DNA of 64,000 nucleotides from Alphaproteobacteria bacterium (GTDB taxonomy: Bacteria; Pseudomonadota; Alphaproteobacteria; Rhizobiales; OSC116): assembly GCA_002400495.2 (NCBI GenBank), contig NVQL02000076.1, positions 1-64,000 of the forward strand, given 5' to 3'. Below, piece by piece: positions 13,354-34,843 of this stretch (positions within the stretch are counted from its first letter, which is position 1; each line of letters begins with the position of its first letter). The translations under genes were made by a program, and so were the position numbers. Under the pieces are notes generated by a model that searched no databases, was not told the DNA's origin, and saw only the letters and a program-made list of their open reading frames with translations.

Positions 13354-13627
13354 TTGGCGAAAAGGGTATTATGCTGAGGTCTCATAACCAAATGAAATAC
13401 CAAACTTGAGAGAAAAGATTAAGGCCAAAACAATACAAATGAAGGTTGCGATATCAAATTAATGCTGCATAATTAAACAATAGAGATCAACAAAACTCTG
13501 GCTTAATTCAAACAACTATTTGTCTCAATGCATTTGGAGACGGATGGGTGAATTTTTAGAGCTATGAGTATACCGGTGAAAAATATTTATGACCCTATTT
13601 GAGAAGAATTAATTGTAGGAGCGAGTG

Positions 13628-15326: not shown

Positions 15327-15357
15327 TATACAAATGAAAATATATATTGACAATTGT
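15327..15357 (+). promoter_or_regulatory. Shared upstream element (CAAATG-N10-TTGACAATTG) ahead of the PNP operon
   Basis: TATACAAATGAAAATATATATTGACAATTGT; 26/31 identical to 31689..31719. Confidence 0.65.
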
Positions 15358-15431
15358 ACGGTAATGATGAAAATTATAAATAATTTGTTAGGGTTATTTT
15401 TTACCAATATTGTAAATTAAGTGAAATTTAT

Positions 15432-16265
15432 ATGCAGCAAGGTTTTTTTGACAAAGTAGAAAAATCGGTGGCGAGTATCCACGGGTATAGCACGCTTGTT
15501 CCTGAGATTGCGATTGTCACTGGCACTGGGCTTGGCTCGGTATTGGACGAGATTGAAATTGAAATTGAAATTGCTTATGGTGATATTGAGGGCTTTCCAG
15601 TTAGTACGGCGCCAAGTCATGCGGGTAAATTGATTTTAGGTCGGTTGCACGGATATCGTGTGGTGGCTTTGAGCGGTCGGTTTCATGCTTATGAGGGTTG
15701 GTCTGATGATGAGCTGGTTTTGCCGATTTATGTGTTAAAAATGCTGGGTGCGGATAGATTGATTGTGACCAATGCGGCTGGCGGGTTAAACCCGAATTTT
15801 AGTGTGCCAAGTGTTATGTTAATTGAAGATCACTTGTCGTTTTTGGGGGTGTTTCCTTTGGCGGGGCCAAATGATGATCGGCTTGGGGTTCGGTTTCCGG
15901 ATATGAGCCGTGCTTATGATCTTGATATGAGACATGCAGCCTTGGAGATTGCCGAAAAAGCTGATATTAAAATGGAAACAGGCACTTATATTGCGTGGCA
16001 TGGGCCTGCGTTAGAGACAAATGCTGAACGTAAATTTTGCCGTATGGCTGGTGGGGATGCGGTTGGTATGTCTACAGTTTTGGAAGTGGTTGCTGCCAAT
16101 CATGCTGGCATTAAAGTGTTGGGATTTTCGGTCATCGCCAATGCCGCTACGGGCGGGGATGAGCAGCAAGTGGATACGCTTGAAGATATTTTAGTGGGGG
16201 TTGATTTGGTGGCTGGAAAAATAGGCTACGTTATTGGTCAATTATTGAAAGAGAAGAGAATTTAA
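15432..16265 (+). CDS. Purine nucleoside phosphorylase family (PNP/MTA-phosphorylase class)
   Basis: AIVTGTGLGSVLDE, GRFHAYEGW, VTNAAGGLNPNF, WHGPALETNAER, DAVGMSTVLEVVAANHAGIKVLGFSVIANAATG. Confidence 0.93.
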   Translation: MQQGFFDKVEKSVASIHGYSTLVPEIAIVTGTGLGSVLDEIEIEIEIAYGDIEGFPVSTAPSHAGKLILGRLHGYRVVALSGRFHAYEGWSDDELVLPIYVLKMLGADRLIVTNAAGGLNPNFSVPSVMLIEDHLSFLGVFPLAGPNDDRLGVRFPDMSRAYDLDMRHAALEIAEKADIKMETGTYIAWHGPALETNAERKFCRMAGGDAVGMSTVLEVVAANHAGIKVLGFSVIANAATGGDEQQVDTLEDILVGVDLVAGKIGYVIGQLLKEKRI

Positions 16266-16295
16266 AAAATAGGCAAATACCCGGAGGGAAAAGCC

Positions 16296-17306
16296 ATGAA
16301 TATGTTTAAGAAAATATTGTCAACAGCTGTCGTTAGTCTCTGTTTGACGACAGCCGCTACTGCGGCAGAAAAGTCATTTTACTATATTTCGCCCAACCCA
16401 ATTGGGGTGAATGCATTTTTGCAAATGGGTGAAGTTGGTATTAAATCTGCGGCCGCACAAAATGATGCTATTGCCAAAATTGTTGAAAGTGATACGCCGC
16501 AATCGCGGTTAGAAAATATTAGTGCAGCGGCCAATGATGGTGCTGATATTGTGGTGGTCTTAGGCTTCGCATTTAATGATATTCTTGAAGAGGTGGCGCC
16601 GTTATATCCTGATACGCAATTTTTAATTGTTGACCAATGTATTTGGGTTGATCGTCCTGAAAACGTGAGTTGTGCTGTGTTCCGCGAGCATGAAGCTTCG
16701 TTCTTAATGGGTGCGATTGCTGGCTTGAATACCAAGAATAATAAAATTGGCGCCGTGTCCGCGATGGACATTCCATTCTTGCATAGATATACAGATTCTT
16801 TTGCTGAAGGCGCTAAATATGTGAACTCAGATGTTGAATTTGAGGTGCGGTATGTTGGTGGGCAAAACCCATTCCAAGACCCAGTTCGTGCCAAAGAAAT
16901 GGCAATTTCGCTAGCAGCTAGTGGTGTTGATACATTGTTTGCGGTCACTGCAGGTGGTGATTTTGGTATTTTTGAAGCAGCAGCTGAAAATGGCTTTAAA
17001 GTTTTATCGGTTGATGTGAACCATTGCCCTGCGGCAGAAGGTCATATCATTGAAGGCACATTGAAGCATGTTGATGCGGTGATTGAGACTTCAATTGAGC
17101 GTATTTTGGCTGGCGAAACTAGTTTTGTTGCTAGCTACGGCCTTAAAGAAGGCGGCATGGGTGCGCAAATATTAAGAAGCGATGCTGAGCTTGCTGATAG
17201 TAAATGCCTGGTTGCAGATCAAGCTGATACGATTAAGGCAGTGCGGGCGATTGCGGCTGAGATTATTGATGGCTCGTTGGTTATCAAAGATCCGATGGCG
17301 AATTGA
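16296..17306 (+). CDS. BMP family (nucleoside) ABC transporter substrate-binding protein
   Basis: Signal peptide; PNPIGVNAFLQMGEVG; EHEASFLMGAIAGLNTKNNKIGAVSAMDIPFLHRYTDSFAEGAKYVN. Confidence 0.88.
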   Translation: MNMFKKILSTAVVSLCLTTAATAAEKSFYYISPNPIGVNAFLQMGEVGIKSAAAQNDAIAKIVESDTPQSRLENISAAANDGADIVVVLGFAFNDILEEVAPLYPDTQFLIVDQCIWVDRPENVSCAVFREHEASFLMGAIAGLNTKNNKIGAVSAMDIPFLHRYTDSFAEGAKYVNSDVEFEVRYVGGQNPFQDPVRAKEMAISLAASGVDTLFAVTAGGDFGIFEAAAENGFKVLSVDVNHCPAAEGHIIEGTLKHVDAVIETSIERILAGETSFVASYGLKEGGMGAQILRSDAELADSKCLVADQADTIKAVRAIAAEIIDGSLVIKDPMAN

Positions 17307-17313
17307 TCCAAAC

Positions 17314-18858
17314 ATGACGAGGATTGGTTTAAACAAAACTGAGGACAGCAAAGCAGTTTGCTGTCTTTTTAATGTCTGCAAATCGTTTGGCGCTGTGCAA
17401 GCGCTTCATCACGTGTCGCTTGAAATTAGGCGCGGTGAAACCTTGGCGATTGTTGGTGAAAATGGTGCGGGCAAAACCACTTTAATGAATATATTATTTG
17501 GTTTAATGGCGCCTGATGAAGGTAGTATTTCGCTTGATGGCCAAGAGGTTGTGTTTAAAAATGCAGCGCAGGCGATTGATGCTGGGATTGGTATGGTTCA
17601 TCAACATTTCATGCTTTATCCGAACCTGACTGTTTTGGAGAATATTCTAATTGGCGCTGAAGGCAAAACGCGGTTTGGTCTGTTGGATTTTGAAAAAAGG
17701 CGGACGGAAATTTTAGCGCTGATTGATGAATTCGAATTTAAATTGGCGGTTGATAAAAAGGTGTCGGAATTATCGCTCGATGCGCAACAGCAGCTAGAAA
17801 TTATTAAAATATTATACCGTGGGTCGCAGATTATTATCTTGGATGAACCGACGGCTATTTTGATTCCTAAAGAAATTGAAGCTTTGTTTAATGTGATTAA
17901 GCGCTTAACCGATGAAGGTAAGTCGGTGATTATTGTCACTCATAAATTAGGTGAAGTGATGGAAAATGCTGATCGGGTGGTCGTGATGCGCAGTGGCGAG
18001 GTGGTTGATACGTTATTGATCAGCCAAACCAGTCAAGCCGAATTGGCAAAATTAATGGTGGGTAGAGAGATTGAACCGCTCAAGAAGATTGCATTCATTA
18101 AAGATGATGTGGTGCTTGAAGTGAACGGTTTGACGGTGCAAGGGACTGGTAAAGTGGCTATGCTTGACAATATATCTTTGCAAATAAAATCGGGTGAGAT
18201 ATTGGGCATTGCGGGTGTTTCGGGCAGTGGACAAAAGCAATTGGTGGAGGCGTTGGTTGGCTTGCGCAACCCAGATGGCGGTGAGATTTTGTTGGATGGG
18301 GTTAACGTGAATTCCAAATCAGTTAGGCAACGGCGGGATGTTGGGCTGGCGTATATTGCCGAAGATAGAATGATGGTGGGCTTGGCTGTGGATGCATCTG
18401 TTGCTGAAAACGCCATAGCAGGACGTGAGGCGAGTGGTCAATTTACTAAATATGGGCTGTTTAATTTCCAGAAAATTAGAGAATTCACTCGGGATTTAAT
18501 TGAGCGATTTGACATTCGAACCACGGGTTCTGCGCAAATTGTGGATGACCTTTCGGGCGGTAACAAACAGAAAATAATTGTTGCGCGGGAACTGAATGGA
18601 TCGCCGCGGCTTATCATTGCAGAAAACCCGTGTTGGGGTGTTGATATTGGCGCGATTAGTTTTATTCAGCGGCAATTGTTAGACTGCGCTAAGGATGGCG
18701 CAGCGGTATTATTGATCAGCACAGAGTTGGAAGAATTATTTGATTTAAGTGATCGATTGTCGGTTTTTTACGAAGGTCGGATTAGTGCTACATTTACGAG
18801 GGCAGAATTGGATATCGGCCGCGTCGGCGAAGCTATGGCGGGAGGGGAGGCGGCATGA
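17314..18858 (+). CDS. Nucleoside/sugar ABC transporter, tandem ATPase
   Basis: GENGAGKTTLMN Walker A, IIILDEPTA Walker B, second domain GVSGSGQKQLVEAL and LSGGNKQKIIVARELNGSPRLII; start re-chosen to ATG 17314 after the SBP stop. Confidence 0.92.
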   Translation: MTRIGLNKTEDSKAVCCLFNVCKSFGAVQALHHVSLEIRRGETLAIVGENGAGKTTLMNILFGLMAPDEGSISLDGQEVVFKNAAQAIDAGIGMVHQHFMLYPNLTVLENILIGAEGKTRFGLLDFEKRRTEILALIDEFEFKLAVDKKVSELSLDAQQQLEIIKILYRGSQIIILDEPTAILIPKEIEALFNVIKRLTDEGKSVIIVTHKLGEVMENADRVVVMRSGEVVDTLLISQTSQAELAKLMVGREIEPLKKIAFIKDDVVLEVNGLTVQGTGKVAMLDNISLQIKSGEILGIAGVSGSGQKQLVEALVGLRNPDGGEILLDGVNVNSKSVRQRRDVGLAYIAEDRMMVGLAVDASVAENAIAGREASGQFTKYGLFNFQKIREFTRDLIERFDIRTTGSAQIVDDLSGGNKQKIIVARELNGSPRLIIAENPCWGVDIGAISFIQRQLLDCAKDGAAVLLISTELEELFDLSDRLSVFYEGRISATFTRAELDIGRVGEAMAGGEAA

Positions 18859-19871
18859 GTGATTTGTTGAAAAAGACTAATCTGGTTGGTGTGGCATCGG
18901 CGGCTTTATTGCTGAGTTTGATATTGATCATCCCTGCGAGCAGAGACGTGGCTTTTGGTTTTTGGGATGGAGTGGTTGGCGGCAGGAATCATTTTAACCT
19001 ATGGACAACGCTGAGCCGTGCGTCAATTATCATCGGCATGGCAATGGCTGCATTGGTGGCGTTTCGGGCGGGCTTGATAAATTTAGGCGGTGAGGGACAG
19101 CTGGTTTTGGGTGGGCTGGTTGCTGCATTGGTTGGTGTTTATGTGGATTTACCGCCAGTGTTATTGGCGGTTGTGGCGCTTGTCTCGGCAATGTTGGCGG
19201 CGGGGCTTTGGGCATTGCTAGCTGGTTGGCTTGACCGTGTGGTTGGTATGCCATTGCTGGTTGCCTCGTTATTATTAAACTATCCTGCGAATTATTTTGC
19301 TTCCTATTTGGTGTCTCATCCCTTGCGCGATGTGATGTCGGGCATATCGCAATCGCATAAAATTGACAAGGCGGCAAGGCTGCCGAGGTTTTCTGGCACT
19401 ATATTGGATTATGGTATTTTTATTGTGATCATTTTGGTGATTTTAATCGTATGGTTAGAGCGGAATTCGATATTTGGATATCGGCTTAGAATGCATGGTT
19501 ATTCGGCTAAATTTGCTGAAGTGTCGGGTTTTCCGAGCGGTAAGATATTTTATCAGGCTTTGTTTATCAGCGGGGCGATTGCGGGTTTGGTTGGGTTTTT
19601 GGTGGTGTTTGGGTTTTCGCAGCGCTATATCGATGGGATGCTGACGGTGCCACTTTATGCGTGGACGGGTATTGTTGCGGTTTTGCTGGCAGCGATAACG
19701 CCGTGGATAGTGCCGATAACGGGCTTGTTATTTGCCATTTTGGCAACTGGGGCAGGCGGCATGGAACGGGTTGCGGGTATTCCGCGCGAGGCATCGCAAA
19801 TTGTGCAGGGCATGATTATTTTATGGCTGGCGGCAACGGGTAAGCCGTTAAATTCAAAGGATGGACATTGA
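18855..19871 (+). CDS. ABC transporter permease
   Basis: Hydrophobic; MAMAALVAFRAGLINLGGEGQLVLGGLVAA typical of nucleoside-type BPD_transp_2 permeases; 4-bp overlaps with neighbours. Confidence 0.9.
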   Translation: MSDLLKKTNLVGVASAALLLSLILIIPASRDVAFGFWDGVVGGRNHFNLWTTLSRASIIIGMAMAALVAFRAGLINLGGEGQLVLGGLVAALVGVYVDLPPVLLAVVALVSAMLAAGLWALLAGWLDRVVGMPLLVASLLLNYPANYFASYLVSHPLRDVMSGISQSHKIDKAARLPRFSGTILDYGIFIVIILVILIVWLERNSIFGYRLRMHGYSAKFAEVSGFPSGKIFYQALFISGAIAGLVGFLVVFGFSQRYIDGMLTVPLYAWTGIVAVLLAAITPWIVPITGLLFAILATGAGGMERVAGIPREASQIVQGMIILWLAATGKPLNSKDGH

Positions 19872-20770
19872 ACATGATGCTTGATCCGACTTTTTTTGAT
19901 TCAATCGCTCGGTTTATCACGCCGCTTTTGCTGGCTGCGTTGGGCGGGGCGTTATGCGATAGGGCGGCGGTGTTTAACATTGCGCTCGAAGGCATGATGT
20001 TGATCGGGGCGTTTTTTGGCGTGGTTGGCTCTTATTATTTTGGCAGTTGGCAGGCTGGCTTATTGTTTGCCATTTTATCGGGCTTTGCTAGTGGTGTGGT
20101 GTTTTCGTGGTTTTCGATCTATCGCAAAGGTGATGATATTGTTGTCAGCATTGGTTTTAATATATTGGCATTGGGCTTGACGGTGTTTTTGCTGCGGTAT
20201 TTGTTCAATACGCGCGGGCAATTTGATGATCCTAATATTATTGGCGTGCCGCGCATTAGCATTCCGATTATTTCGGACATTCCTTATATTGGTAATTTAT
20301 TTGCTAACCAGTCCATCTTATTTTACTTCGCGATTATATTGGTGTTTCTGATTCAATTTCTATTATTCAGGCACAAATATGGGTTATATTTGCGGGCTGC
20401 TGGTGATAATATTATGGCGCTGCGCACTGCTGGTCTTTCGCCTGAGTTGATTCAAAGTGGGGCGGTGATTGCTTGCGGAATTTTATGCGCTTTGGCGGGG
20501 GCGCAATTGTCGATCTCGAGCGTGACATTATTTGCTGAGGGCATGAGCGCGGGGCGCGGGTGGATTGCCGTGGTGATCATTATGATGTGTGCGGGGCGGC
20601 CGTTGCTTATATTGCCTGCAGCGATATTTTTTGGCCTGTTGGACGCGATTGGTTTTCGCATTCAAGCTTTTGGTGTGCCGCAACAATTTACCGATTCATT
20701 GCCGTATGTTTTGGCCATATTCATCATGGCCATTGCGATTGGCCGAAGGCGTCGTAAGTTAAATAAATAA
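19868..20770 (+). CDS. ABC transporter permease
   Basis: LLLAALGGALCDRAAVFNIALEGMMLIGAFFGVVGSYYFGSW, GLSPELIQSGAVIACGILCALAGAQLSIS. Confidence 0.9.
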   Translation: MNMMLDPTFFDSIARFITPLLLAALGGALCDRAAVFNIALEGMMLIGAFFGVVGSYYFGSWQAGLLFAILSGFASGVVFSWFSIYRKGDDIVVSIGFNILALGLTVFLLRYLFNTRGQFDDPNIIGVPRISIPIISDIPYIGNLFANQSILFYFAIILVFLIQFLLFRHKYGLYLRAAGDNIMALRTAGLSPELIQSGAVIACGILCALAGAQLSISSVTLFAEGMSAGRGWIAVVIIMMCAGRPLLILPAAIFFGLLDAIGFRIQAFGVPQQFTDSLPYVLAIFIMAIAIGRRRRKLNK

Positions 20771-20798
20771 TTGATTTTATGGATGGGGGAAGATTTAC

Positions 20799-22121
20799 AT
20801 GACTGTATTTCCACAGGCAGCCGATATTTTAGTGCTTGGCGGTGAAATTTTAACCATGGATGGTAAATTTACTAGCTTTGAAGATGGGGCTATTGCGATA
20901 TCGGACAGTAAAATTGTTGCTGTTGGGCATCAGGTAGACGCTGCAAATTGCGAGGCTTGTGATACCATAAATGCCGAAGGTATGTTGGTGACGCCTGGCC
21001 TGGTCAACACCCATTGCCATGCAGCCATGACTTTGTTTCGTGGTTTGGCCGATGATGTGCCGTTGGATTTGTTTTTAAAAACCGTATGGGCAGCCGAAGC
21101 TGAACATGTCAATTATAACAATGTTTTTGCGGGGGCGACATTGGGCATTGCTGAAATGGCAATGGGCGGAATTACGCATTTTGTTGACATGTATATGGAA
21201 CCCGAAGCGACAATTGCAGCCTCACGGAAAGTTGGCATTAGTTTAACTTCTGGGCCGATATTTATGGGTATAAATTCGGTGTCTAGCGATGAATGGCAGG
21301 AACAGATGCGGGTTGCTGATGCTTATTTATCGATAGCCAAAGACAAGCCTGACGTGCAGAATATGATTATGCCGCATTCGAGTTATGCGCTGGATATGGC
21401 GCAGTTAAAAGACTTGGTTGCATTGGCGCAAAAATATGACATTCGGATGCACACTCATGGTGCGGAAGCGCCTTCGGAAATGAAATTGGTCGCGGCGCTG
21501 CATGATGGTGCGCGACCAATTGACGTGTTTGAAAGTGCGGGTGTTTTTGCGCAAGGTGGTACATTGATTGCGCATGCGGTGGATTTAACTGATGAAGAAA
21601 TTACACGTATGGCGGATTGTGGCGTTTCGGTTTCTCATTGCCCATTATCTAACAGCAAACTGGCTTCGGGCATGGCGCGGGTGAGGGATTTGCGCGCTGC
21701 TGGTGTGACTGTTTCGCTGGGTACTGATGGAGCGTCTAGTGGAAATGATCTTGATTTGTGGAAGGCCATGCGGCTGGCGAGTTTTGTGTCGGCATTGTTA
21801 ACCGAGCAGCCTGCGGTTTTGCCTGCGCGGGAAATATTTGCTATGGCGACACGTGAGGGTGCAAAAGCTCTCGGGCTTGAAGATGAATTTGGTACGCTTG
21901 AAGTTGGCAAACGTGCGGATATTATGATGATTGATATGTCGGCTTTGCATTTAACGCCTAGCTATGATCCATATTCGTCGCTGGTGTTTGCAGCTGGGCG
22001 TGAGGATGTTTGCCATGTGATTGCGAACGGTGCGCTAGTGGTCGAAAATAAGCAACTTATTGCCGATATTTCAAGCGAAATTATGCAGGTCAAAAGAGTT
22101 GCTGATCAGATATCGGTATAA
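20799..22121 (+). CDS. TRZ/ATZ-type amidohydrolase, MTA/SAH deaminase-like
   Basis: VTPGLVNTHCHAAMTLFRGLADDVPLDLFLKTVWAAE, THGAEAPSE, HAVDLTDEEI, VSHCPLSNSKLASGMARV, SLGTDGASSGNDLDLWKAMRLAS. Confidence 0.9.
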   Translation: MTVFPQAADILVLGGEILTMDGKFTSFEDGAIAISDSKIVAVGHQVDAANCEACDTINAEGMLVTPGLVNTHCHAAMTLFRGLADDVPLDLFLKTVWAAEAEHVNYNNVFAGATLGIAEMAMGGITHFVDMYMEPEATIAASRKVGISLTSGPIFMGINSVSSDEWQEQMRVADAYLSIAKDKPDVQNMIMPHSSYALDMAQLKDLVALAQKYDIRMHTHGAEAPSEMKLVAALHDGARPIDVFESAGVFAQGGTLIAHAVDLTDEEITRMADCGVSVSHCPLSNSKLASGMARVRDLRAAGVTVSLGTDGASSGNDLDLWKAMRLASFVSALLTEQPAVLPAREIFAMATREGAKALGLEDEFGTLEVGKRADIMMIDMSALHLTPSYDPYSSLVFAAGREDVCHVIANGALVVENKQLIADISSEIMQVKRVADQISV

Positions 22122-22152
22122 CCGTTGGGTGATGTTTATGGTGTTTTGAGGT

Positions 22153-22192
22153 GCCAAAACAATAGGTCAAGGGGGAGAATTATTGTTTTGGC
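22153..22192. terminator. Stem-loop between convergent genes
   Basis: GCCAAAACAATA (16-nt loop) TATTGTTTTGGC, 12-bp perfect stem. Confidence 0.55.
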
Positions 22193-22213
22193 TGTCGGGG
22201 GATGGAGTGTCTG

Positions 22214-24265
22214 TTAACGTAGACTGGCTTCGATATTACCGCCGTCAACAGTAAGAATATGGGCTGTCGTGCGCTCACTTTTGGCTAGCATCACAAAACC
22301 ATCAGCGACATGTTTGGCTTCTACTTCACGATGTAATAAATTACCAGCCATATAGGTTTTTGTGTCTACGCCGCGGGCTTTGGAGCGGGTTTCGATGAAT
22401 TCATCATCTAGTAAGCCCGAACGAATGCGATCGGCATTAATGCCATTAACACGTATGTTATTTTCGCCTAGCTCTAGCGCGAGTTGTTTGACTAAAAATA
22501 GGGTTGTGGCTTTTGGTAGCCCATAAGCACCAAAACCTTTGCCGGGGTTTACGGCTTGTTTGGAGACGTTAAATAATAATTGCCCGCCAAAATCTTGTGT
22601 TTGCAGTATTTTGGCGGTTTGTTGAGCGAGTTTGTGATGGCTGAAAAAGTTCAAATTGAAGCTAGACATTAGTGTTTCATCATCCATTTCAACCATGCTG
22701 CTCTGCCACGCAGCGCCTGCATTGCTGACCAAAATATCAACCCCACCAAAACGTTTTACGCACGCGGTCAATATATCATTTGCGGCATTTTCTTGGGTTA
22801 TATCGCAAACCATATGTGCGTGGTCTTGGCCAAAATCGGCCTGAACTTGTTTTAAAGCGGCTTCATCTCTATCTACCAGAAACAGGTTTGCGCCTTGGTC
22901 TTTAAATGCTTTTGCGCTGGCTACACCTATGGCACCCGCAGCGCCTGTTACGACGACAATTTTGCCGTTAAAAACTTTGGGTTTTGCGCTGCCTAATTTG
23001 GCTTGCTCGAGTGACCAATATTCCATTTCGAATAAATCTTTATCGCCAATTGGGTAAAAACCACCATTGGCTTGCGCCCATTGCATAACTTGGCAAGTTT
23101 GCTCGCCAATATCGGCGGCAATGCGGGCTGCGCTGGCGTTTGCGCCTATGCCTAAAATACCTAGGCCTGGAATCCACGCTAAGTTTGGCGTGGGGCATAG
23201 CATTGTTTTGCTGTCTGCGGAGAGTTTTACTTGTTGGTTGAAATAGGCTTTATATTGTTGAATGAATTCTGCAACGGCGGTTTGAATGCCAGCTTTGCCT
23301 TGTGCCAATATATCGGCGGTTAATAGCAAGGGATGGCCTTTGGTGCGAATGACGTGGTCAGGTGTTGCCACACCGCGTGTCGCCAATTCTGCAAGATCAT
23401 CACGCATTAAGAATGATAAGTTTTCGCTTGATGAGCGTAGGTCAAATATGGGAGCGGCACAGTCTGGATCTGCTGTATGTTTGGCAATTTCTGTCGATAA
23501 AACGCCACGTAGAATGGGTAATATTTCTGAGGCGATTTGGATTTTTTGTGGGGTTTTGATTTCGGGTTTGGTGTTTTTGGTTAGCCAATCCTCGACTAAA
23601 TTGACATGCTCGATCATTAAATCGTATGATTTCTTGGCGCTATTTGCAAAGGTGAAATGCCCATGATTAATAAGCATCATGCCTTCGATATCGGGGTTGG
23701 CATCAAATATATCTGCTGCGGTTTTGGAGAGTGAGAAACCCGGCATAATGTAAGGCACAAGGGCAACGCGATCGCCAAAGATTTGTTTGGTTATTTTCTC
23801 GACATCAGGGAGGTTTGCCAATGCTAACATCGAGGTTGCGTGGGTATGATCTACAAATTTATGGGGAATATAGGCGTGTAATAAGGTTTCGACTGAAGGG
23901 TTGGGTGATTTGCTATCTAATAAGTTTGAACGTTGGATATTGACCATATCCTCATCTGATAGAGTTTCTAAATTTCGCAAATTGGCTAATGGTGCCATAT
24001 TAACAGCGGGCAAGCCTGGGGCTTGGATGGTTTCTAAATCCCAACCGCTGCCTTTAACATGTAAAACCTTTATTGAGTTTCCAAAAATATCTGTCCGATC
24101 GACCTTAACCGAGGTATTCCCCCCACCATGCATGACGAGATCGGGGTTTTGCCCTAAAAGTTGAGATGTATAAACACGAAGTGCCAATTGTTGGTCTGCT
24201 GAATCTTCGCCCGCTTCAGTTAAAAATTGTTCTGCAATCTTTGTATTCCATAAATTTTCGACCAT
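22214..24265 (-). CDS. Bifunctional class II aldolase / short-chain dehydrogenase (RhaEW-like architecture)
   Basis: N-terminal aldolase class II (VMHGGGNTSVKV, DHTHATSMLAL, LINHGHFTF) plus C-terminal SDR (VVTGAAGAIGVASAKAF, YGLPKA, TVDGGNIEASLR). Confidence 0.9.
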   Translation of the reverse strand: MVENLWNTKIAEQFLTEAGEDSADQQLALRVYTSQLLGQNPDLVMHGGGNTSVKVDRTDIFGNSIKVLHVKGSGWDLETIQAPGLPAVNMAPLANLRNLETLSDEDMVNIQRSNLLDSKSPNPSVETLLHAYIPHKFVDHTHATSMLALANLPDVEKITKQIFGDRVALVPYIMPGFSLSKTAADIFDANPDIEGMMLINHGHFTFANSAKKSYDLMIEHVNLVEDWLTKNTKPEIKTPQKIQIASEILPILRGVLSTEIAKHTADPDCAAPIFDLRSSSENLSFLMRDDLAELATRGVATPDHVIRTKGHPLLLTADILAQGKAGIQTAVAEFIQQYKAYFNQQVKLSADSKTMLCPTPNLAWIPGLGILGIGANASAARIAADIGEQTCQVMQWAQANGGFYPIGDKDLFEMEYWSLEQAKLGSAKPKVFNGKIVVVTGAAGAIGVASAKAFKDQGANLFLVDRDEAALKQVQADFGQDHAHMVCDITQENAANDILTACVKRFGGVDILVSNAGAAWQSSMVEMDDETLMSSFNLNFFSHHKLAQQTAKILQTQDFGGQLLFNVSKQAVNPGKGFGAYGLPKATTLFLVKQLALELGENNIRVNGINADRIRSGLLDDEFIETRSKARGVDTKTYMAGNLLHREVEAKHVADGFVMLAKSERTTAHILTVDGGNIEASLR

Positions 24266-24301
24266 TATGACATTTCCTATATATAATTTACCATTACCTC
24301 T

Positions 24302-24332
24302 ATTTGACAAATATCAGATACACTTGTCAAAT
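24302..24332. promoter_or_regulatory. Perfect 9-bp inverted repeat in divergent aldolase/SorC promoter
   Basis: ATTTGACAA-atatcagatacac-TTGTCAAAT. Confidence 0.68.
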
Positions 24333-24433
24333 GAAAAATAATAATTTCATACTGATTCTATTGTTGAATATTTTTTTTGGTCGGTTTAAGCTTAATACAA
24401 GTATTTGCTGCAAAAAGGAGCATTGGGATTTAT

Positions 24434-25420: not shown

Positions 25421-25422
25421 AT

Positions 25423-26517: not shown

Positions 26518-27782
26518 AGCTTGCTGTCTTTCTCAATTTTTACGATAAATTGGTTGATATTGTCTATATTTTCAAATTTTTTGCTTTGAGTTATGAGCTT
26601 GCGCCCCATGGCGATGCAGTTTTTTTCGACATTGGCGCGCGCTTTAATGTCTTCAATTGTATCAATTTCCATAATGTGCGCGAGGCCGATGGTGCGCCTG
26701 ATCATCTCGGCACCCGCAAAGCCGATGGCGTCTTGCCAAATTGTGGTTAGCAGTTGGGTCAGAGCCTCGTCGCTAGCGTTTTGATGGCCTTGGTCTTTGA
26801 ATAATTTGTCTTCAAATAAAATACCATTGCGTTCTGTTTGCCAAAGGTTTGAAAATTCTTGGGTAAATGATATCCAAATTTTTTCGACTATTTTTAGAAT
26901 CCATTTGCGGTAATCATCACGATTGTCATCGGTAGTTTGATGACCTTGTTGCGCAAAATAGGCCATCCAAAAATTAGCGAGTAGCATGCCGACATCAAAA
27001 CCTATAGGACCGTAAGTGGCAAATTCGGGGTCAATTATCGACGTTTCATTTTGCGTGACCATGATTGATCCTGTATGCAAATCGCCATGCAGTAGGGTTT
27101 CATTTTGAGTGAAAAATTTAGCTTTTAGAATTTGAACGGCTATTTTTAATTCAACGTCTTTACGTAGATCGCTGACCACTGCGTCTAAAGCTGGGGAATT
27201 AATATTATTGCTGTCAGCATCGTAATAGGGGTCGGTAAATACCAGATCTTCAGTTATGTTGCAAAGGGCTACATTGTCGGAAAATATGGCTAAATCGGCC
27301 TTAAAAGCAGGAGCGGTCAGTGAGTAACTTGAGCCTCGAAATAACGTTTGAGCGCAGAATATACCCATATCATGCGCTAGGTTTTTGTGTTTTATGCCGT
27401 CTTTTAAGCTATGGCGTAAAATAACGTGTGGCTGCATAAATTGCATGACCAAAATAGCTTGTTTTTGGTTGAAATAATAAACCTCTGGAACCAAATTATT
27501 TGTGCGCTCTGCTTGACGCACTAAAGCCTCATGTTCAAAGAAAGCGCGCTTTAAAGTTAGTGGCCAGCTTTCGCCCACCACGCGGACATAGGGCAGTGCT
27601 TGTTTGACGATTAATTTGCCTTTTGGGCCTTGTACAATGAAAACTAAATTTAAATTGCCATCGCCAACTTCATTTGAAGTCCATAAATTAGGGTCGTCAC
27701 CAAGCCTTGCTTTTAGCGTGTTAATGTCGCCCAATCGGGTGCTAAGTGTTTCAATTGTTAACTCTTTATAGTCTTCCGACAT
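26514..27782 (-). CDS. mtnK: S-methyl-5-thioribose kinase
   Basis: [76 protein letters not shown]; 4-bp overlap with mtnA. Confidence 0.95.
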
Positions 27783-27852
27783 TCAAAACTCCCTTTTATT
27801 GAATGTAATTGGTTTTGTTAGTTTCGCTTGATTTAGCAAGAGTGACAAAATT

Positions 27853-27888
27853 TATATCAATTGTCAATATGATTTGACATTTGATATA
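27853..27888. promoter_or_regulatory. Near-perfect palindrome between mtnK and the divergent sugar ABC operon; contains the shared CAAWTG-N10-TTGACA element
   Basis: TATATCAATTGTCAA-tatgat-TTGACATTTGATATA, arms match at 14 of 15 positions. Confidence 0.72.
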
Positions 27889-27931
27889 TTTTGCTTTTAA
27901 GTTAGGCGAAATAGAGGGACGATTAAACCGA

Positions 27932-29485
27932 ATGGGTAAAGTTAATTCATCGATAAAACTAACTGGGCTTGAAAAGAGTTTCGGCTCAAACCGTGTTCTA
28001 CGCGGCATAGATTTAGATATTCCTGCAGGGGAGGTCACCATTTTAATGGGCGCAAATGGTGCAGGAAAATCTACCTTGGTTAAAGTTATGTGCGGTGTGC
28101 ATAAGGCGGATTCTGGCACGATATATTTGGCGGGAGAAGAATTTAATCCACAGACACCCGCTGAGGCCATCAAGGCCGGCATCGTGACTGTGCATCAAAA
28201 TATTAATGATGGTGTGGTGCCTGATTTAGATGTTGCGTCTAACCTTATGTTGGACGTATTGGCGAACCCTCATAGTTCGGTTTTTTTATTGCCGTCGAAA
28301 ATTAGAAAATCGGCGAAACAAGCGGCCGAAAGGCTTGGGCTTGATTTGGATATGAGAGCGCCCGTACACAGCTTATCGCTTGCTGATAAACAGCTTGTTG
28401 CAATCACCCGCGCCATGGCTCATGAGCCTAATTTACTTATATTGGATGAACCAACTTCGTCGCTGTCTTTATCGGAAACCCAAAGATTATTTGAATTGCT
28501 AGATAGGCTGAAAGCGCGTGGTGTGGCGATATTATATATTTCTCATCGTATGTCAGACATTAAACGTATGGCAGACCGCATTGTTAGTATGCGAGATGGC
28601 GAAGTGAGTGGTGTGTTTGAAGGTGATGATTTAGATTATATCGGTGCGGTAAATGCCATGCTTGGGCGTAAAATAGCGGATGTTGATATACAGATTCCTG
28701 AAGTTGGTGCGCCCGTATTGGAGCTTGAAAATATTCAATTATTGCCTAGCTCGAAGCCATTTTCGTTGGCAGCGCATAAAAACGAAATTATTGTGATTAC
28801 AGGTTTGGTTGGCGTTGGGAAATCGCTACTTGCTTCGGTTTTATTTGGGCGCGAAGCTTTGTTCAAGGGTGAGATATCCTTGAATGGCCAAAAATACAAT
28901 CCTAAAAATATCACCGATGCGATTAATGAAGGGGTGTTTTTATGCGCCAAGGACCGTGGCACGAATGGCATCATTCCAGAATTTAATATCAGTCATAATA
29001 TATCACTGCCATTTTTATCGACATTATCGAAATTTGGCTTTATTGGCCGCGGCGCGGAACGAGGTTTTGCCAAAACCGCCATAAAAGATTTGGGCATTAT
29101 TTGCCAAGGTGAAGATGACAATATTGAAGAACTTTCTGGCGGTAATCAACAAAAGGTCATGGTGGCTAGATGGTTGATGAAAAGCTCAAAATTACTAATT
29201 TTAGATGAACCTTTCCAAGGTGTTGATATTGCAGCGCGGCGCGATATTGGCAATAAATTACGCGAAACCGCCAAGGATAGAGCGACGATTGTTTTTGTCA
29301 CAGAATTGGATGAGGCGCTTGAAATAGCCGATCGAATTTTTGTGATGTCAGAACATGGCGTGGTGGGCGAGCATAGAAATATGAATGCGGATGCTGATTT
29401 GATATTGGCGCAAGTTTTGGGTGATCAGGTTATGGATAAACGGATGAATAAGAATATTGGAATTAGTGAAGGAGCTGCCTTGTGA
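27932..29485 (+). CDS. Ribose-type sugar ABC transporter, tandem ATPase
   Basis: MGANGAGKSTLVKVMCG, LLILDEPTSSLS, LSGGNQQKVMVARWLMKSSKLLILDEPFQGVDI. Confidence 0.93.
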   Translation: MGKVNSSIKLTGLEKSFGSNRVLRGIDLDIPAGEVTILMGANGAGKSTLVKVMCGVHKADSGTIYLAGEEFNPQTPAEAIKAGIVTVHQNINDGVVPDLDVASNLMLDVLANPHSSVFLLPSKIRKSAKQAAERLGLDLDMRAPVHSLSLADKQLVAITRAMAHEPNLLILDEPTSSLSLSETQRLFELLDRLKARGVAILYISHRMSDIKRMADRIVSMRDGEVSGVFEGDDLDYIGAVNAMLGRKIADVDIQIPEVGAPVLELENIQLLPSSKPFSLAAHKNEIIVITGLVGVGKSLLASVLFGREALFKGEISLNGQKYNPKNITDAINEGVFLCAKDRGTNGIIPEFNISHNISLPFLSTLSKFGFIGRGAERGFAKTAIKDLGIICQGEDDNIEELSGGNQQKVMVARWLMKSSKLLILDEPFQGVDIAARRDIGNKLRETAKDRATIVFVTELDEALEIADRIFVMSEHGVVGEHRNMNADADLILAQVLGDQVMDKRMNKNIGISEGAAL

Positions 29486-30495
29486 AGCAAGCAAGTTTGA
29501 GTAAAGACAAAATTAAAGCTGTTGCCATTCGCTATGGATTTTTAACCTTGCTCGCTGGGTTGGTGTTGTTTTTTAGCCTATCTGCGCCCGGTTTTGCGAC
29601 ACCGTTTAGTGCGGTGTTTATATTTCAGTCGGTGGCGATTACGGGTATTTTGGCGTTGGGTGTCACTGCAACTTTGGTGGTTGATGGGTTTGATTTGTCA
29701 ATTGGTTCTATCGCCACATCTAGCTTGATGTTGTCGGCCTATATTATGGTGGTGCTAGAGCAGAATGCTGTTGTGGCAGTTATTGCTTGTTTGGCCATGG
29801 GGGCCATCGTTGGCTTGGTTAATGGTGTTTTAATTGTCTATATGCGAGTGCCCGATTTGCTGGCTACTCTTGGTATGATGTTTTTGCTGATTGGTTTACA
29901 GCGCATTCCAACCGAAGGCCGCTCTATTGCTCAAGGCATGACACTACCTGGTGGCGAAACCGCTACGGGGGTGTTTTCTAAGTCATTTTTGGCATTGGGG
30001 CGTCATAAATTTGATTTTTTCATAGAAAATTTCATTCCATTTTCAGTCATTATATTCGTGGTGATTGCGGTTTTAATTTGGTTGTATTTTGAATTTACCC
30101 GTTATGGGCGGGTTATGTATGCGATTGGCTCTAACGAGCGTGCCGCTGGCTTAGCTGGTGTGCCCGTGCATAAATATAAAATTATTGCCTATATGATTTC
30201 AGGCGTTTTGGCCTCAGTTGGTGGTATCTTGTTGGCTGCGCGTTTGGGTCGGGGGGACATCGCTTCGGGCAATAACCTATTGCTCGATTCGGTGGCGGCG
30301 GCGTTGATTGGTTTTGCGGTGCTTGGAGCGGCAAAACCTAATGCATTTGGCACTGCCATTGGTGCGTTGTTTGTCGGTATTTTATTGCAAGGTATGACGA
30401 TGATGAACGCGCCTTATTATACGCAAGACTTTGTAAAAGGCGCGGTATTGGTTGTGGCTTTGGTGTTTACTTTTTCACTATCAAATCGACGGTAA
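29482..30495 (+). CDS. Ribose-type sugar ABC transporter permease
   Basis: BPD_transp_2-like; GYGRVMYAIGSNERAAGLAGVPV-type motif (RYGRVMYAIGSNERAAGLAGVPVHKYK), TLVVDGFDLSIGSI. Confidence 0.92.
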   Translation: MKQASLSKDKIKAVAIRYGFLTLLAGLVLFFSLSAPGFATPFSAVFIFQSVAITGILALGVTATLVVDGFDLSIGSIATSSLMLSAYIMVVLEQNAVVAVIACLAMGAIVGLVNGVLIVYMRVPDLLATLGMMFLLIGLQRIPTEGRSIAQGMTLPGGETATGVFSKSFLALGRHKFDFFIENFIPFSVIIFVVIAVLIWLYFEFTRYGRVMYAIGSNERAAGLAGVPVHKYKIIAYMISGVLASVGGILLAARLGRGDIASGNNLLLDSVAAALIGFAVLGAAKPNAFGTAIGALFVGILLQGMTMMNAPYYTQDFVKGAVLVVALVFTFSLSNRR

Positions 30496-30566
30496 TTCAA
30501 TTCAAAATAATATTAAACCTGACCAATTTGATATTTTAAATAAGGTCATTATTAAGGGAGAATAAA

Positions 30567-31619
30567 ATGAAAATAACCAGACGTATATTCACTTCGATGG
30601 TAGCAGGCGTGGTGTTAGCCGCAACTGGGATCATTGGAAGTGTGTCTGCAGCGGATATGCCTGCGCCATTTGACAAGCCAAGCGAAGTGAAAATTGCTTT
30701 GGTGCGTTATCTTTCGACGGGTGATTTTTTCCAAGCTTATTTGGCGGGTGTTGAATCACAAGCCAAAATATTGGGTGTTGATTTGCGTATTTTGGATAGC
30801 CGTCAGGACGCGGCTTTGCAAGCTGATATGGTTGACCAAGCGATTGCCTTGGGTGTCGATGGCATTATTGTGCAACATGGTTTAACAGAATCTATGCAAG
30901 AAGCTGTGAAACGGGCGATTGCCGCTGGCATTAAAGTGGTGGCATTTGATGTGGACGTCGAAAACCCAGATGTGCCACAAATTGAACAGTCTGACTTTAT
31001 GTTGGCTAAAATGGCGCTAGATCAAGCCATTATTGACAATGGCACAACATTTAATGCTGGCTATGTTTATGTTCCGGGCATTGCGCCGCTTGACCGTCGT
31101 GATGTGGCGTGGAAAGAAGTTAAAGACGCCAATCCAGGCATTAAACAACTTGCAGAATTTGGTACGTTGGACAACCCCATCGCCAACTCTGTTGCCAACC
31201 AAGCGCGTTCTGTTTTGGCGGCTAACCCAACCATTACGGTTATGTTTGCACCTTATGACGAATTTGCCAAAGGCGTAAAGATTGCGGTTGATGAAGCGGG
31301 TATGACCAGCCAAGTTAAGATTTATTCGGCTGATGTTTCGACTTCTGATATTTCTGCAATGCGTGAAGAAGGAAGTGCATGGGCTGCGACGGCTGCGACA
31401 AACCCAGCAGTTGTTGGTGAGGTTTCGGTTCGGGTGTTGGCAATGTTGCTTGCGGGCGAAGATCCTGGTCACAATGTTGTGGTTCCCCCAACTTTGATCA
31501 CGCAAACAATGCTGAATGATGGTGACATTAAAAACATGAAAGAGCTATCTGCAAAGATACCTGCATTTGCGCATGCAGATGTGGCTGTTCCAGCATGGAT
31601 GCCGCTACCTAAACGCTAA
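30567..31619 (+). CDS. Sugar ABC transporter substrate-binding protein (periplasmic binding protein family)
   Basis: Signal peptide; ALQADMVDQAIALGVDGIIVQHG; KRAIAAGIKVVAFDVDV. Confidence 0.92.
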   Translation: MKITRRIFTSMVAGVVLAATGIIGSVSAADMPAPFDKPSEVKIALVRYLSTGDFFQAYLAGVESQAKILGVDLRILDSRQDAALQADMVDQAIALGVDGIIVQHGLTESMQEAVKRAIAAGIKVVAFDVDVENPDVPQIEQSDFMLAKMALDQAIIDNGTTFNAGYVYVPGIAPLDRRDVAWKEVKDANPGIKQLAEFGTLDNPIANSVANQARSVLAANPTITVMFAPYDEFAKGVKIAVDEAGMTSQVKIYSADVSTSDISAMREEGSAWAATAATNPAVVGEVSVRVLAMLLAGEDPGHNVVVPPTLITQTMLNDGDIKNMKELSAKIPAFAHADVAVPAWMPLPKR

Positions 31620-31641
31620 AATGTAGTAGATATGAATGATG

Positions 31642-31673
31642 GGTCGACAAATTAATTTTGTCGGCCTTTTTTT
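31642..31673 (+). terminator. Rho-independent terminator
   Basis: GGTCGACAAA-ttaat-TTTGTCGGCC followed by TTTTTTT. Confidence 0.85.
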
Positions 31674-31688
31674 ATGATTGGTTCAAAT

Positions 31689-31719
31689 TATACAAATGAA
31701 AATACTACTTGACATTTGT
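31689..31719 (+). promoter_or_regulatory. Shared upstream element (CAAATG-N10-TTGACATTTG) ahead of the transketolase/RLP operon
   Basis: TATACAAATGAAAATACTACTTGACATTTGT. Confidence 0.65.
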
Positions 31720-31758
31720 TGAATATTCGGCAATTTTAGTTTAAATGAACTGAGGTAT

Positions 31759-32691
31759 ATGATGAAAAATTCAAGAACGACTGAGCAGGTGGCTTTGGGC
31801 ATTCGGCGTCGAGTGTTTGAACATACGATACTTAATAATGGTGGCTATTTAAGCCAAGCTTGTTCATCTGCCGAAATGTTGGCATGGTTGTATAATGAAG
31901 CGCTTACTATTGGCGATCCGACCTTGCCGATGATACCACGTGATTTTTCAGGCGTGCCTTCGGTTAATAATCCTGACTATGTATCTGGCGCAGGATATAA
32001 TGGCCCTGCAACGCCAGAATATGACCGCTTATTCATTGCGCCCGCGCATTATGCCTTGGTGGCTTATGCCACCTTAATTGAAGTGGGGCGAATGGCACCT
32101 GAAGGGCTTGAGATGTTTAATAAAGATGGCTCATCGGTCGAAATGATTGGGGCTGACCATTCTCCGGGTATGGAGGTTCATAACGGCACGCTCGGCATTG
32201 GCCTTTCGACTGCATCTGGCCTTGCCTATGGCCGCAGAAAACGCGGCGATAAAGGCGAAGTTTGTGTGTTTATGTCTGACGGTGAAGTGCAAGAGGGGCA
32301 AACATGGGAAGCGGTTCAAGCTTGCGCTCATCACGGTATTGATAATGTTTGGGCGATCATGGATGTGAATAATCAGCAATGCGATGGCGCGATGTCGAGT
32401 GTAATGGAAGTGCGCGATATTGCCACAAAATTCAGAGCTTTTGGCGCGGTTGCGGTGGAAATTGACGCCCATGATTTGGACGCTATGCGCCAAGCCAAAG
32501 CGGAGCCACATGAGGGGAAACCGCTTATTATTTTGGCGCATTCATCGCCGATGAAAGGCATGAAGAAATTGGAAGAAAGATTCCCACGCCTGCATTATGT
32601 GCGTTTTAAAAGCCCAGAAGAACGTGCTGAATATAATATATCAATCGCCGCGGAGCTTGGTGTTGACCCCGTTGTATATGAAACACATTAA
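31759..32691 (+). CDS. Transketolase, N-terminal (ThDP-binding) subunit
   Basis: VCVFMSDGEVQEGQTWEAVQACAHHGIDNVWAIMDVNNQQ; DHSPGMEVHNGTLGIGLSTASGLAYGRR. Confidence 0.9.
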   Translation: MMKNSRTTEQVALGIRRRVFEHTILNNGGYLSQACSSAEMLAWLYNEALTIGDPTLPMIPRDFSGVPSVNNPDYVSGAGYNGPATPEYDRLFIAPAHYALVAYATLIEVGRMAPEGLEMFNKDGSSVEMIGADHSPGMEVHNGTLGIGLSTASGLAYGRRKRGDKGEVCVFMSDGEVQEGQTWEAVQACAHHGIDNVWAIMDVNNQQCDGAMSSVMEVRDIATKFRAFGAVAVEIDAHDLDAMRQAKAEPHEGKPLIILAHSSPMKGMKKLEERFPRLHYVRFKSPEERAEYNISIAAELGVDPVVYETH

Positions 32692-32720
32692 GAATATGAC
32701 ATACATTAAAGGTAGCAAAC

Positions 32721-33725
32721 ATGGTTGAAATGGTAACACGCCCGTATGCGGGTGCTTTTGAAAAATACGCTTTGGCAAACCCCGATGTAATTTGTGTATC
32801 GGCCGATTTAACATCATCTTGCGAAATTGATGGTTTTAGAGACCGTCACCCTGAGCAATTTTTATCGATGGGCATGGCTGAACAAAATATGATGAGTTTT
32901 GTCGGCGGTTTGAACATGGCGGGATACAGGCCGTTTGTTCATACATTTGGAGTGTTTACCTATAGACGACCCTATGACCAGCTTATGGCATCCATTGCCT
33001 ATGGGCGCAGGAAAGTGCGCATTATGGGTTTTTTGCCGGGCATCACAACACCGGGCGGTATGACGCATCAGGCGATTGAGGATATTTCGGTCATGCGTGC
33101 CATGCCCAATATGACCATATTAGAAACTGGTGATGCCACCGAAGTTGAGTCTATTTGCGCAGCAGCAGATAGCATTGATGGCCCCGTTTATTGCCGTGTT
33201 TTGCGCGGCAATGTGCCTCGATTATTTGACACGCCGATAAAAGTCGGCGAAATGCGTGAGTTAAGCTCAGGCAGCGATATATTAGTGGTCACTGCGGGCA
33301 TCACAACCGAAGAGGCGATGCGCGCGCGCGCGGCATTACAAGATGCGGGTGTGTCTATACGTCATTTGCATTTAAACACGTTAAAGCCATTCGATTCTGA
33401 AACTTTGTTGGATCACTTGCAGTCGGTAAAATACGGGGTGATCACGCTTGAAAACCATGTCGTTACGGGCGGGATTGGTTCGATAGTTGCGGAAACGATT
33501 GCAGATGCGGGTATCGCCAAACGGCTTATTCGTTTAGGTTTGCAAGATACTTATGCGCATGGTGGCTCGCGTGCTTATTTAATGCGTTATTATGGCCTAG
33601 ATGCATTGGCCTTAATACATGCAATTGATGATATGTTGGGCAACTCGACAGGCATAGGTGAAGAAGATTTGAATGCAGCACGTGTAGACGCTGTGCATTC
33701 TCTGGCTAAAGCTGAAGGGTTATAA
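32721..33725 (+). CDS. Transketolase, C-terminal subunit
   Basis: VSADLTSSCEIDGFRDRHPEQFLSMGMAEQNMMSFVGGLNMAGYRPFVHTFGVF; VITLENHVVTGGIGSIVAETIAD. Confidence 0.92.
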   Translation: MVEMVTRPYAGAFEKYALANPDVICVSADLTSSCEIDGFRDRHPEQFLSMGMAEQNMMSFVGGLNMAGYRPFVHTFGVFTYRRPYDQLMASIAYGRRKVRIMGFLPGITTPGGMTHQAIEDISVMRAMPNMTILETGDATEVESICAAADSIDGPVYCRVLRGNVPRLFDTPIKVGEMRELSSGSDILVVTAGITTEEAMRARAALQDAGVSIRHLHLNTLKPFDSETLLDHLQSVKYGVITLENHVVTGGIGSIVAETIADAGIAKRLIRLGLQDTYAHGGSRAYLMRYYGLDALALIHAIDDMLGNSTGIGEEDLNAARVDAVHSLAKAEGL

Positions 33726-33727
33726 TC

Positions 33728-34843
33728 ATGTCGCGGTTTAATGTGACCTATAAAATATTTGCGGATAATGATAAACATGCTTTGAGCCGTGCCGAAAATA
33801 TAGCCTTGGAACAAACTGTAGAAATACCGCGTGACATCGTGCCAAAAGGTTATATTGAAGACAATATATTGGGCAAACTAGAGGATATAACGCGTGCCGA
33901 TAACCAGAGTTTTAACGCTCAAATTAGCTACAGCCCTGACAGCGTAGGCAGCGAATTGCCGCAATTGCTAAATGTGATATTTGGCAATAGCGGCATCCAA
34001 AAAGGCTTGAAAGTTATCGATCTCGAATTGGGTGATGTTTTATCCCAGCGCTTTACAGGTGCAAAATTTGGTATTGATGGCGTGCGTAAAAAAATTGGCC
34101 GTTCAAGCGGCGCATTAATTGCTGCGGTGATTAAGCCACAAGGGTCGAGTGTTGATGAGTTGGCGTTGATTGCCTATCGCTGTGCGTTGGCTGGTGCGGA
34201 TATCATTAAAGACGACCATGGGTTAACCAATCAACATATGGCGCCATTTAAAGAGCGGGTTGAGAAGATTTGTGAAGCGGTGGCAAAAGCCAATTTAGAA
34301 ACGGGACTCAATTGTTTGTATTTCCCGAATATTGCAGGCCATAGCGCGGATTTAGAACGATATGCTGAATTTGCTAAGAATTCGGGCGGTGGTGGCGTGT
34401 TGGTTATGCCTGGATTATTTGGGTTTGATGCGGCTTTGCGTTTGGCAAGGGATGATGATTTTAATTTACCGATTATGACGCATCCGAGCTTTTTAGGGCC
34501 GTATATTTTGTCTGAAGACACAGGTTTTAGCCATGCGATGATGTTTGGTAAAATACAACGTCTATGCGGTGCTGATATTTCGGTGTTTCCAAATGTTGGC
34601 GGTCGGTTTGGTTTTTCTGAGTTGGAATGCCGATCTATTGCCATTGCTTGCAAATCAGATGATGGCATTGGCAAACCAATCATGCCTAGCCCTGGGGGCG
34701 GGATGACCAAGGAACGTGCGGCAGATTTAAAAACCATGTATGGAGACGATGTGGTTCTTTTGCTGGGTGGTTCGTTGCTGCGTTATGGCGATAAAATTGG
34801 TGACGGAATTAAAGAAATGCGCACGGCGCTTGATGCTGTTTGA
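33728..34843 (+). CDS. RuBisCO-like protein (form IV RLP)
   Basis: IAAVIKPQGSSVDELALIAYRCALAGADIIKDDHGLTNQ, NIAGHS, MTHPSFLGPY, FPNVGGRFGFS, PSPGGGMTKER, LLLGGSLLRYGD; RuBisCO large-subunit fold motifs with altered catalytic residues. Confidence 0.92.
   Translation: MSRFNVTYKIFADNDKHALSRAENIALEQTVEIPRDIVPKGYIEDNILGKLEDITRADNQSFNAQISYSPDSVGSELPQLLNVIFGNSGIQKGLKVIDLELGDVLSQRFTGAKFGIDGVRKKIGRSSGALIAAVIKPQGSSVDELALIAYRCALAGADIIKDDHGLTNQHMAPFKERVEKICEAVAKANLETGLNCLYFPNIAGHSADLERYAEFAKNSGGGGVLVMPGLFGFDAALRLARDDDFNLPIMTHPSFLGPYILSEDTGFSHAMMFGKIQRLCGADISVFPNVGGRFGFSELECRSIAIACKSDDGIGKPIMPSPGGGMTKERAADLKTMYGDDVVLLLGGSLLRYGDKIGDGIKEMRTALDAV

Follow-up and report, generated by a model that had tools for sequence, protein, structure and literature searches.

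Introduction

Which pathway is encoded by a gene block that joins enzymes of methylthioribose metabolism to a RuBisCO-like protein (RLP) and to a transketolase (TK) split into two subunits? The question is raised by a 64,000-nucleotide stretch of alphaproteobacterial DNA (contig NVQL02000076.1; hereafter the window, at its full length), in which sixteen intact open reading frames (ORFs) span positions 15432-34843, from the start of a purine-nucleoside phosphorylase (PNP) gene to the end of the RLP gene. The source genome has a size of 3.96 Mb in 122 contigs and is 91.6% complete. A previous interpretation made from the letters alone (the sequence-only reading) had regarded this block as one functional unit, and all genes that it named are present there as intact ORFs. 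On the basis of homology, gene order and comparison of related loci, we consider it probable (about 0.58) that the block is a catabolic or salvage system for 5-(methylthio)pentoses, in which the main route would run from the isomerase MtnA through RLP to the split TK, and a class II aldolase fused to a short-chain dehydrogenase (aldolase-SDR) would provide a side outlet. The substrates may possibly be methylthioribose, methylthioadenosine (MTA) and perhaps sulfoxides of these.

Core of the gene block and its recurrence in related genomes

MtnA, 5-methylthioribose-1-phosphate isomerase (25423-26517, minus strand), is the sole copy in the genome and scores 423 bits against a cut-off of 279 (TIGR00512), and MtnK, 5-methylthioribose kinase (26514-27782, minus strand), scores 499.5 against 275 bits (TIGR01767) and matches PDB 2pyw and 2olc. 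Both of them, as well as PNP and the aldolase-SDR, pass curated NCBIfam cut-offs, which supports the MtnK/MtnA core of the sequence-only reading. The split TK is composed of an N-terminal subunit that binds thiamine diphosphate (ThDP) (TKN; 31759-32691, plus strand; PF00456 and the N-chain of the split TK in PDB 6yak) and a C-terminal subunit (TKC; 32721-33725, plus strand; PF02779 and PF02780, PDB 6yaj/6yak), and RLP (33728-34843, plus strand) follows.

When the neighbourhood check proposed by the sequence-only reading was run, a unit composed of mtnK, mtnA, a ribose-type ABC transporter, TKN, TKC and RLP was found to recur in many Hyphomicrobiales, with variants in Rhodobacterales and Vibrio. 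The collection scan, whose patterns reach close relatives only, gave Maritalea porphyrae as the sole match, and its gene order is as in the window: aldolase-SDR, SorC, mtnA-mtnK, rbsABC, an RbsD/FucU gene, TKN, TKC and RLP. Of the 398 genomes of the order, 25, the genome of the window among them, contain TKC with at least 64% identity, and the next matches drop to 47%. Loci of type 1, which comprise 15 genomes of the order and Maritalea (16 loci, two of them partly covered by the fetched stretches), contain mtnA, mtnK, rbsABC, TKN, TKC and RLP. Loci of type 2 (10 genomes), in which neither mtnA nor mtnK was seen, have an FGGY kinase, Zn dehydrogenases, often a PfkB kinase, and a sugar ABC transporter that differs from that of type 1. 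Type 3 is represented by Ponticoccus alexandrii, where PNP, deaminase, mtnA, BisC, TKN, TKC and RLP form a single run, without mtnK and aldolase, beside a BMP transporter and SorC; the identity to the window proteins is 44-59% for the transporter, PNP, deaminase and SorC. Given this recurrence in Maritalea and across many genomes from other families, the block is more than a chance assembly, and the view of one functional unit stands.

The linkage among the three central genes is tighter still in other genomes. Agrobacterium sp. MA01 and Ensifer carry contiguous mtnK-mtnA-TKN-TKC-RLP, in which a few bases separate the genes, and Vibrio nigripulchritudo carries TKN-TKC-RLP-FGGY kinase. A genome from another group of the class (G598; locus L120, 7149-9119, minus strand) encodes a 656-residue protein in which MtnA (residues 2-346) is fused to TKN (residues 436-629); the fusion gene is followed by TKC and RLP with PNP close by, and no description of such a fusion was found in the open-access literature. 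Because the Ponticoccus operon dispenses with mtnK and aldolase, and because MtnA and TKN can be one protein, the core of the system is, as judged from gene content, MtnA, RLP and TK.

The aldolase-SDR (22214-24265, minus strand; NF006192, 880 against 639 bits) has a class II aldolase domain (PF00596) that scores below the rhamnulose-1-phosphate aldolase cut-off. The previous proposal to place it at the centre of the pathway was not borne out, since it is present in 7 of the 16 type 1 loci, was unseen in the other nine (two of these not fully covered), and is absent beside RLP and TK in Ponticoccus and at the fusion locus. One may nevertheless suppose that a dihydroxyacetone phosphate (DHAP) shunt is the main route, in which MtnK or PNP together with MtnA would feed the aldolase-SDR to give DHAP and (methylthio)acetaldehyde or acetaldehyde, while RLP and TK would serve another sugar. 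Clusters of kinase, isomerase and class II aldolase act in this manner in Bacillus thuringiensis and E. coli (PMC6079011, PMC10986504), and the aldolase-SDR gene lies directly 3' of mtnK-mtnA in two loci (L022 and L109); the distribution just described and the MtnA-TKN fusion protein make this supposition unlikely. The aldolase-SDR appears to be an optional side branch, and both fates of the pentulose phosphate that had been proposed, the RLP route and the aldolase branch, are kept, with the weight moved to MtnA, RLP and the split TK.

RuBisCO-like protein and the change of its partner

Because the RLP of the window passes no curated family cut-off (160.7 against 513.6 bits for MtnW and 205.7 against 409 for PRK09549), we regard it as a distinct RLP. 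Assignments as the MtnW enolase and as OiaX of the apionate pathway were rejected on their scores. Its match to PDB 3qfw, which we take to be RLP1 of Rhodopseudomonas palustris, is 221 bits, and the two have KPQG and KDDHGL in common, where MtnW proteins have KDDE instead. The 1,3-isomerase role of R. palustris RLP1 is established (PMC5893883), and the shared motifs favour the isomerase type that had previously been assigned to the RLP of the window.

In the tree, the TK-linked RLPs, that of the window among them, form a sister clade of the cupin-linked DeepYkr RLPs; proteins of the two clades are 34-38% identical, and KPQG and KDDHGL are common to both. The neighbour of RLP is a cupin, of the kind beside the Terrarubrum RLP, in one clade and the split TK in the other, and no locus with both was found among the RLP loci examined. 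The neighbour changes once in this quick tree, where the cupin clade has a support of 99 and the placement of two long branches (L129 and L120) is uncertain. A genome search for the methylsulfurylase-type cupin, using the Terrarubrum protein as a query that is assigned by its position beside RLP and not by assay, detected it in 5 of 5 cupin-clade genomes and in 0 of 17 transketolase genomes, including that of the window. Fisher's test on round locus counts (24/0 against 0/18) gave 3e-12, a value to be used as a guide only since related genomes are not independent. In the cupin-clade pathway, MtnA is followed by RLP, which makes 1-(methylthio)xylulose-5-phosphate by 1,3-isomerisation, and then by the cupin; the sole known in vivo role of the RLP family ends with this cupin making an isoprenoid precursor and methanethiol (PMC5893883). 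The simplest reading of the exchange would be that TK takes the place of the cupin on the RLP product.

A second RLP is encoded in one genome that also has a TK-linked RLP (G071; L029, 6398-7510, minus strand). Neither cupin nor transketolase adjoins it, and its place in the tree, on a long branch, is uncertain.

Split transketolase

The sequence-only reading gave no role to TK; the gene fusion, the operon order and the cupin/TK exchange indicate that it acts next to RLP. Because the genome separately encodes a full-length TK and a DXS, the split TK is an extra enzyme, and the candidate roles of only TK or only DXS of the cell were rejected. It keeps marks of the ThDP superfamily, namely an SDG...N motif and the activating Glu (E411 of E. 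coli TktA) within EQNM, and retains H66, H261, H473, R520 and Ser at 385 (E. coli TktA numbering); an Arg (Lys in one row) adjoins the R358 column and probably stands for R358. GA(E/D)HSPG sets this TK group apart, since all fifteen members that were compared have it and the other split TKs under comparison lack it. The canonical donor-contact residues are changed throughout the group: H26 to Tyr, H100 to Met/Leu, H461 to Phe or, in a different alignment, Leu, and D469 to Gly. In E. coli TktA, H100 contacts the C1-OH of the donor, H26 the C3-OH, D469 the C4-OH and H461 the phosphate (roles known for the E. coli and yeast enzymes), and the loss of the C1-OH contact would suit a methylthio group at C1.

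With H26, H100, H461 and D469 all changed, the split TK could instead be a transferase for another donor, e.g., a branched sugar phosphate similar to apulose-4-phosphate, and its link with RLP would then concern a non-methylthio pentose. The FGGY kinases and Zn dehydrogenases of type 2 loci are consistent with such a function, and the apulose-4-phosphate transketolase AptAB is a split TK; we consider this highly improbable, however, because MtnA and MtnK score above the curated methylthioribose cut-offs, MtnA can be fused to TKN, and the score with the OiaX model (apionate pathway) is 70.7 against 700. No apiose-named genes were found among the annotated neighbours of the related loci examined. 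A separate group of split TKs, 33-39% identical, was observed on plasmids of Sinorhizobium and Paracoccus (L145 and L146), where SDR and TRAP transporter genes accompany it.

Proposed pathway

In the methylthiopentose pathway that we prefer, the following entries would lead to 5-(methylthio)ribose-1-phosphate: free methylthioribose would be imported by the ribose-type ABC transporter and phosphorylated by MtnK, nucleosides would be imported by the BMP-type transporter and processed by deaminase and PNP, and internal MTA would be supplied through MtnP encoded elsewhere. MtnA would convert this intermediate to 5-(methylthio)ribulose-1-phosphate, and RLP, as in its DeepYkr relatives, would move the carbonyl by 1,3-isomerisation to give 1-(methylthio)xylulose-5-phosphate. 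The split ThDP enzyme would then cut the C2-C3 bond to yield glyceraldehyde-3-phosphate and a ThDP-bound methylthio-C2 unit, which could be protonated to methylthioacetaldehyde, be transferred to an acceptor, or lose methanethiol to leave an acetyl unit. The aldolase-SDR would serve as a second, optional outlet to DHAP and to an aldehyde in reduced or oxidised form. At type 2 loci that have no RLP, a dehydrogenase together with an FGGY kinase similar to xylulokinase could produce a 1-substituted ketose-5-phosphate directly, so that RLP would be dispensable there. Sequence and comparison establish the identities of the genes, their conservation, the linkage of MtnA, RLP and TK and the exchange with the cupin; the substrates, the RLP reaction in this clade, and the TK reaction with its products are deduced from these.

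Phosphoketolase loses water, and sulfoacetaldehyde acetyltransferase loses sulfite, from a ThDP adduct. In a phosphoketolase-like manner, the split TK might eliminate methanethiol, converting 1-(methylthio)xylulose-5-phosphate to glyceraldehyde-3-phosphate, CH3SH and an acetyl unit (acetyl phosphate or acetate), which would complete a route that needs no oxygen and leads from methylthioribose or MTA to methanethiol and central metabolites. We offer this last step tentatively, as a possible if rather doubtful one.

The assignment of sulfur to the substrate is based on the identities of MtnK and MtnA and on an oxide reductase of sister clusters: a BisC-type molybdopterin S/N-oxide reductase is encoded at 9 of 10 type 2 loci and in Ponticoccus, which argues for a sulfur-bearing sugar. 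On plasmids of Paracoccus seriniphilus and Marinovum (L130 and L131), TKN-TKC is accompanied by BisC, an FGGY kinase, a Zn dehydrogenase, a class II aldolase, a sulfatase and a sulfonate/taurine-type ABC transporter, and this combination suggests a sulfated or sulfur-containing sugar as the substrate. It has to be considered, as a quite unlikely case, that the block disposes of 5-deoxyribose or 5'-deoxyadenosine, RLP turning 5-deoxyribulose-1-phosphate into 1-deoxyxylulose-5-phosphate (DXP), which would be split by TK or feed isoprenoid synthesis. MtnK and MtnA homologues accept 5-deoxyribose, an RbsD/FucU-type mutarotase-like gene is present at 4 loci as in the Denitrovibrio 5-deoxyribose cluster (PMC6079011), and TKC is also similar to DXS; against these points, the BisC-type reductases suggest that the substituent contains sulfur (or is otherwise oxidisable), and DXS is already encoded elsewhere in the genome.

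Several observations weigh against the route from MtnA through RLP to the split TK. The main counterpoint is that the loss of the C3-OH, C4-OH and phosphate contacts is unpredicted by 1-(methylthio)xylulose-5-phosphate and suggests a donor of another shape; the altered active-site residues make the exact substrate uncertain, and some more distant split TKs have the same losses. RLPs of the TK clade retain a His in GF(S)H at the place of Rubisco H327, which the cupin clade does not have, and their reaction may differ. RLP is present in 7 of 10 type 2 genomes, and the three others, all of one genus and with a completeness of 96-99%, have TK without RLP; in Paracoccus seriniphilus and Marinovum, too, RLP is not beside TKN-TKC. 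No BisC above the cut-off was found in the genome of the window.

Uptake, processing and other genes of the window

The two uptake routes that had been recognised previously, one for nucleosides and one for free sugar, are both present. PNP (15432-16265, plus strand) scores 299.6 bits against a cut-off of 218 (NF006054) and is 44% identical to its homologue in the Ponticoccus operon. It is followed on the plus strand by the nucleoside ABC transporter, which consists of a BMP/PnrA-type binding protein (16296-17306; PF02608, 154 bits; 53% identical to the homologue at the Ponticoccus locus), an ATPase (17314-18858; 49%) and two permeases (18855-19871, 59%; 19868-20770, 56%), and then by a TRZ/ATZ amidohydrolase (20799-22121; 47%), a probable deaminase of MTA / 5'-deoxyadenosine type whose best PDB match is the MTA/SAH deaminase 4f0r (235.7 bits) and for which no NCBIfam model was above its cut-off. 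MtnP (PRK08931, 490 against 437 bits) and a second PNP are encoded elsewhere in the genome; since MtnA is a single copy, endogenous MTA, too, must be processed by the MtnA of the window.

The SorC/DeoR-type sugar-phosphate-sensing regulator (24434-25420, plus strand; PF04198, 193 bits) is found at most related loci. The ribose-type (CUT2) ABC transporter is encoded on the plus strand by genes for an ATPase (27932-29485; 47-64% identical in related type 1 loci), a permease (29482-30495; 60-82%) and a substrate-binding protein (30567-31619; 57-80%). The best PDB match of the last is 4ry8 (226.6 bits), presumably an EFI methylthioribose-binding protein from Thermotoga lettingae; as the record says only 'Periplasmic binding protein', this match was not used as evidence.

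As had been stated, mtnB, mtnC, mtnD and mtnE are missing from the window. The view that no complete canonical methionine salvage exists is supported at the genome level by the lack of any PF03079 match, i.e., of acireductone dioxygenase MtnD, in the 91.6% complete genome, where mtnB/C/E were not searched. Contamination or a chimera was rejected, because the tetranucleotide composition of the block correlates with that of other contigs of the genome (r 0.90-0.95). Five genomes of the same genus are without RLP and TK, and horizontal gain is therefore likely.

No RNA elements or tRNAs were found within the window. An astacin-like (M12A) metalloprotease domain protein with a membrane-type hydrophobic stretch near its N-terminus is encoded at 13625-14668. 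At 36792-42831, an MHYT-LytTR regulator that resembles CO-sensing regulators of CoxC/CoxH type lies directly 5' of genes of the aerobic CO dehydrogenase family (coxM, coxS and coxL-like), and an AAA ATPase comes next. Other sugar catabolism is represented by a GatZ/KbaZ-like protein (49303-50592), a UxuA-type D-mannonate dehydratase (62270-63496) and, in their vicinity, one more sugar ABC transporter (56427-61217) with a Peripla_BP_4 binding protein, an ATPase and two permease-looking ORFs.

Significance and comparison with known systems

Nothing relevant to a joining of RLP with transketolase in methylthio metabolism was found in the open-access literature, in agreement with the earlier remark that the arrangement was not a recognised one; subscription papers were largely outside the scope, and priority is unproven. 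A whole sister clade of RLP travels with a dedicated ThDP enzyme and importers instead of the cupin. If the proposed pathway is true, it would be a new branch of methionine and sulfur salvage, would give a function to a group of split TKs, and would mean that alphaproteobacteria of the sea and of soils exploit methylthioribose, MTA and perhaps sulfoxides from outside the cell through C-C cleavage, with volatile methanethiol as a possible product from a new source.

Among known systems, the split transketolases (Carboxydothermus 6yak and the apulose-4-phosphate transketolase AptAB) are likewise two-chain ThDP enzymes, and that of the window differs from them in its changed donor-contact residues, its GA(E/D)HSPG motif and its link to MtnA and RLP. 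The Bacillus RLP MtnW, a 2,3-diketo-5-methylthiopentyl-1-phosphate enolase, also acts after MtnA in methylthio metabolism, whereas the RLP of the window is far below the MtnW cut-off (160.7 against 513.6 bits) and no mtnD was found in its genome. With the DHAP shunt of B. thuringiensis, Rhodospirillum rubrum and E. coli (MtnK or MtnP, MtnA, and Ald2/DrdA), the window shares MtnK, MtnA, a class II aldolase domain, a sugar transporter and a sugar-sensing regulator (PMC6079011, PMC12632272), and the genome has MtnK and MtnP together with MtnA; here, in contrast, the aldolase is SDR-fused and optional, while RLP and the split TK are constant in type 1. With the MTA-isoprenoid shunt of R. rubrum and R. 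palustris (MtnP, MtnA, DeepYkr RLP1 and the cupin methylsulfurylase), it shares MtnA and, as the next enzyme, an RLP from the same broad family that carries KPQG and KDDHGL (PMC5893883), whereas the cupin was not found in the genome, the split TK is present instead, and uptake of sugar and nucleosides is added. Because the system of the window lacks the cupin and can dispense with the aldolase, it is a member of neither shunt; it resembles the MTA-isoprenoid shunt up to RLP and the DHAP shunt at its side branch.

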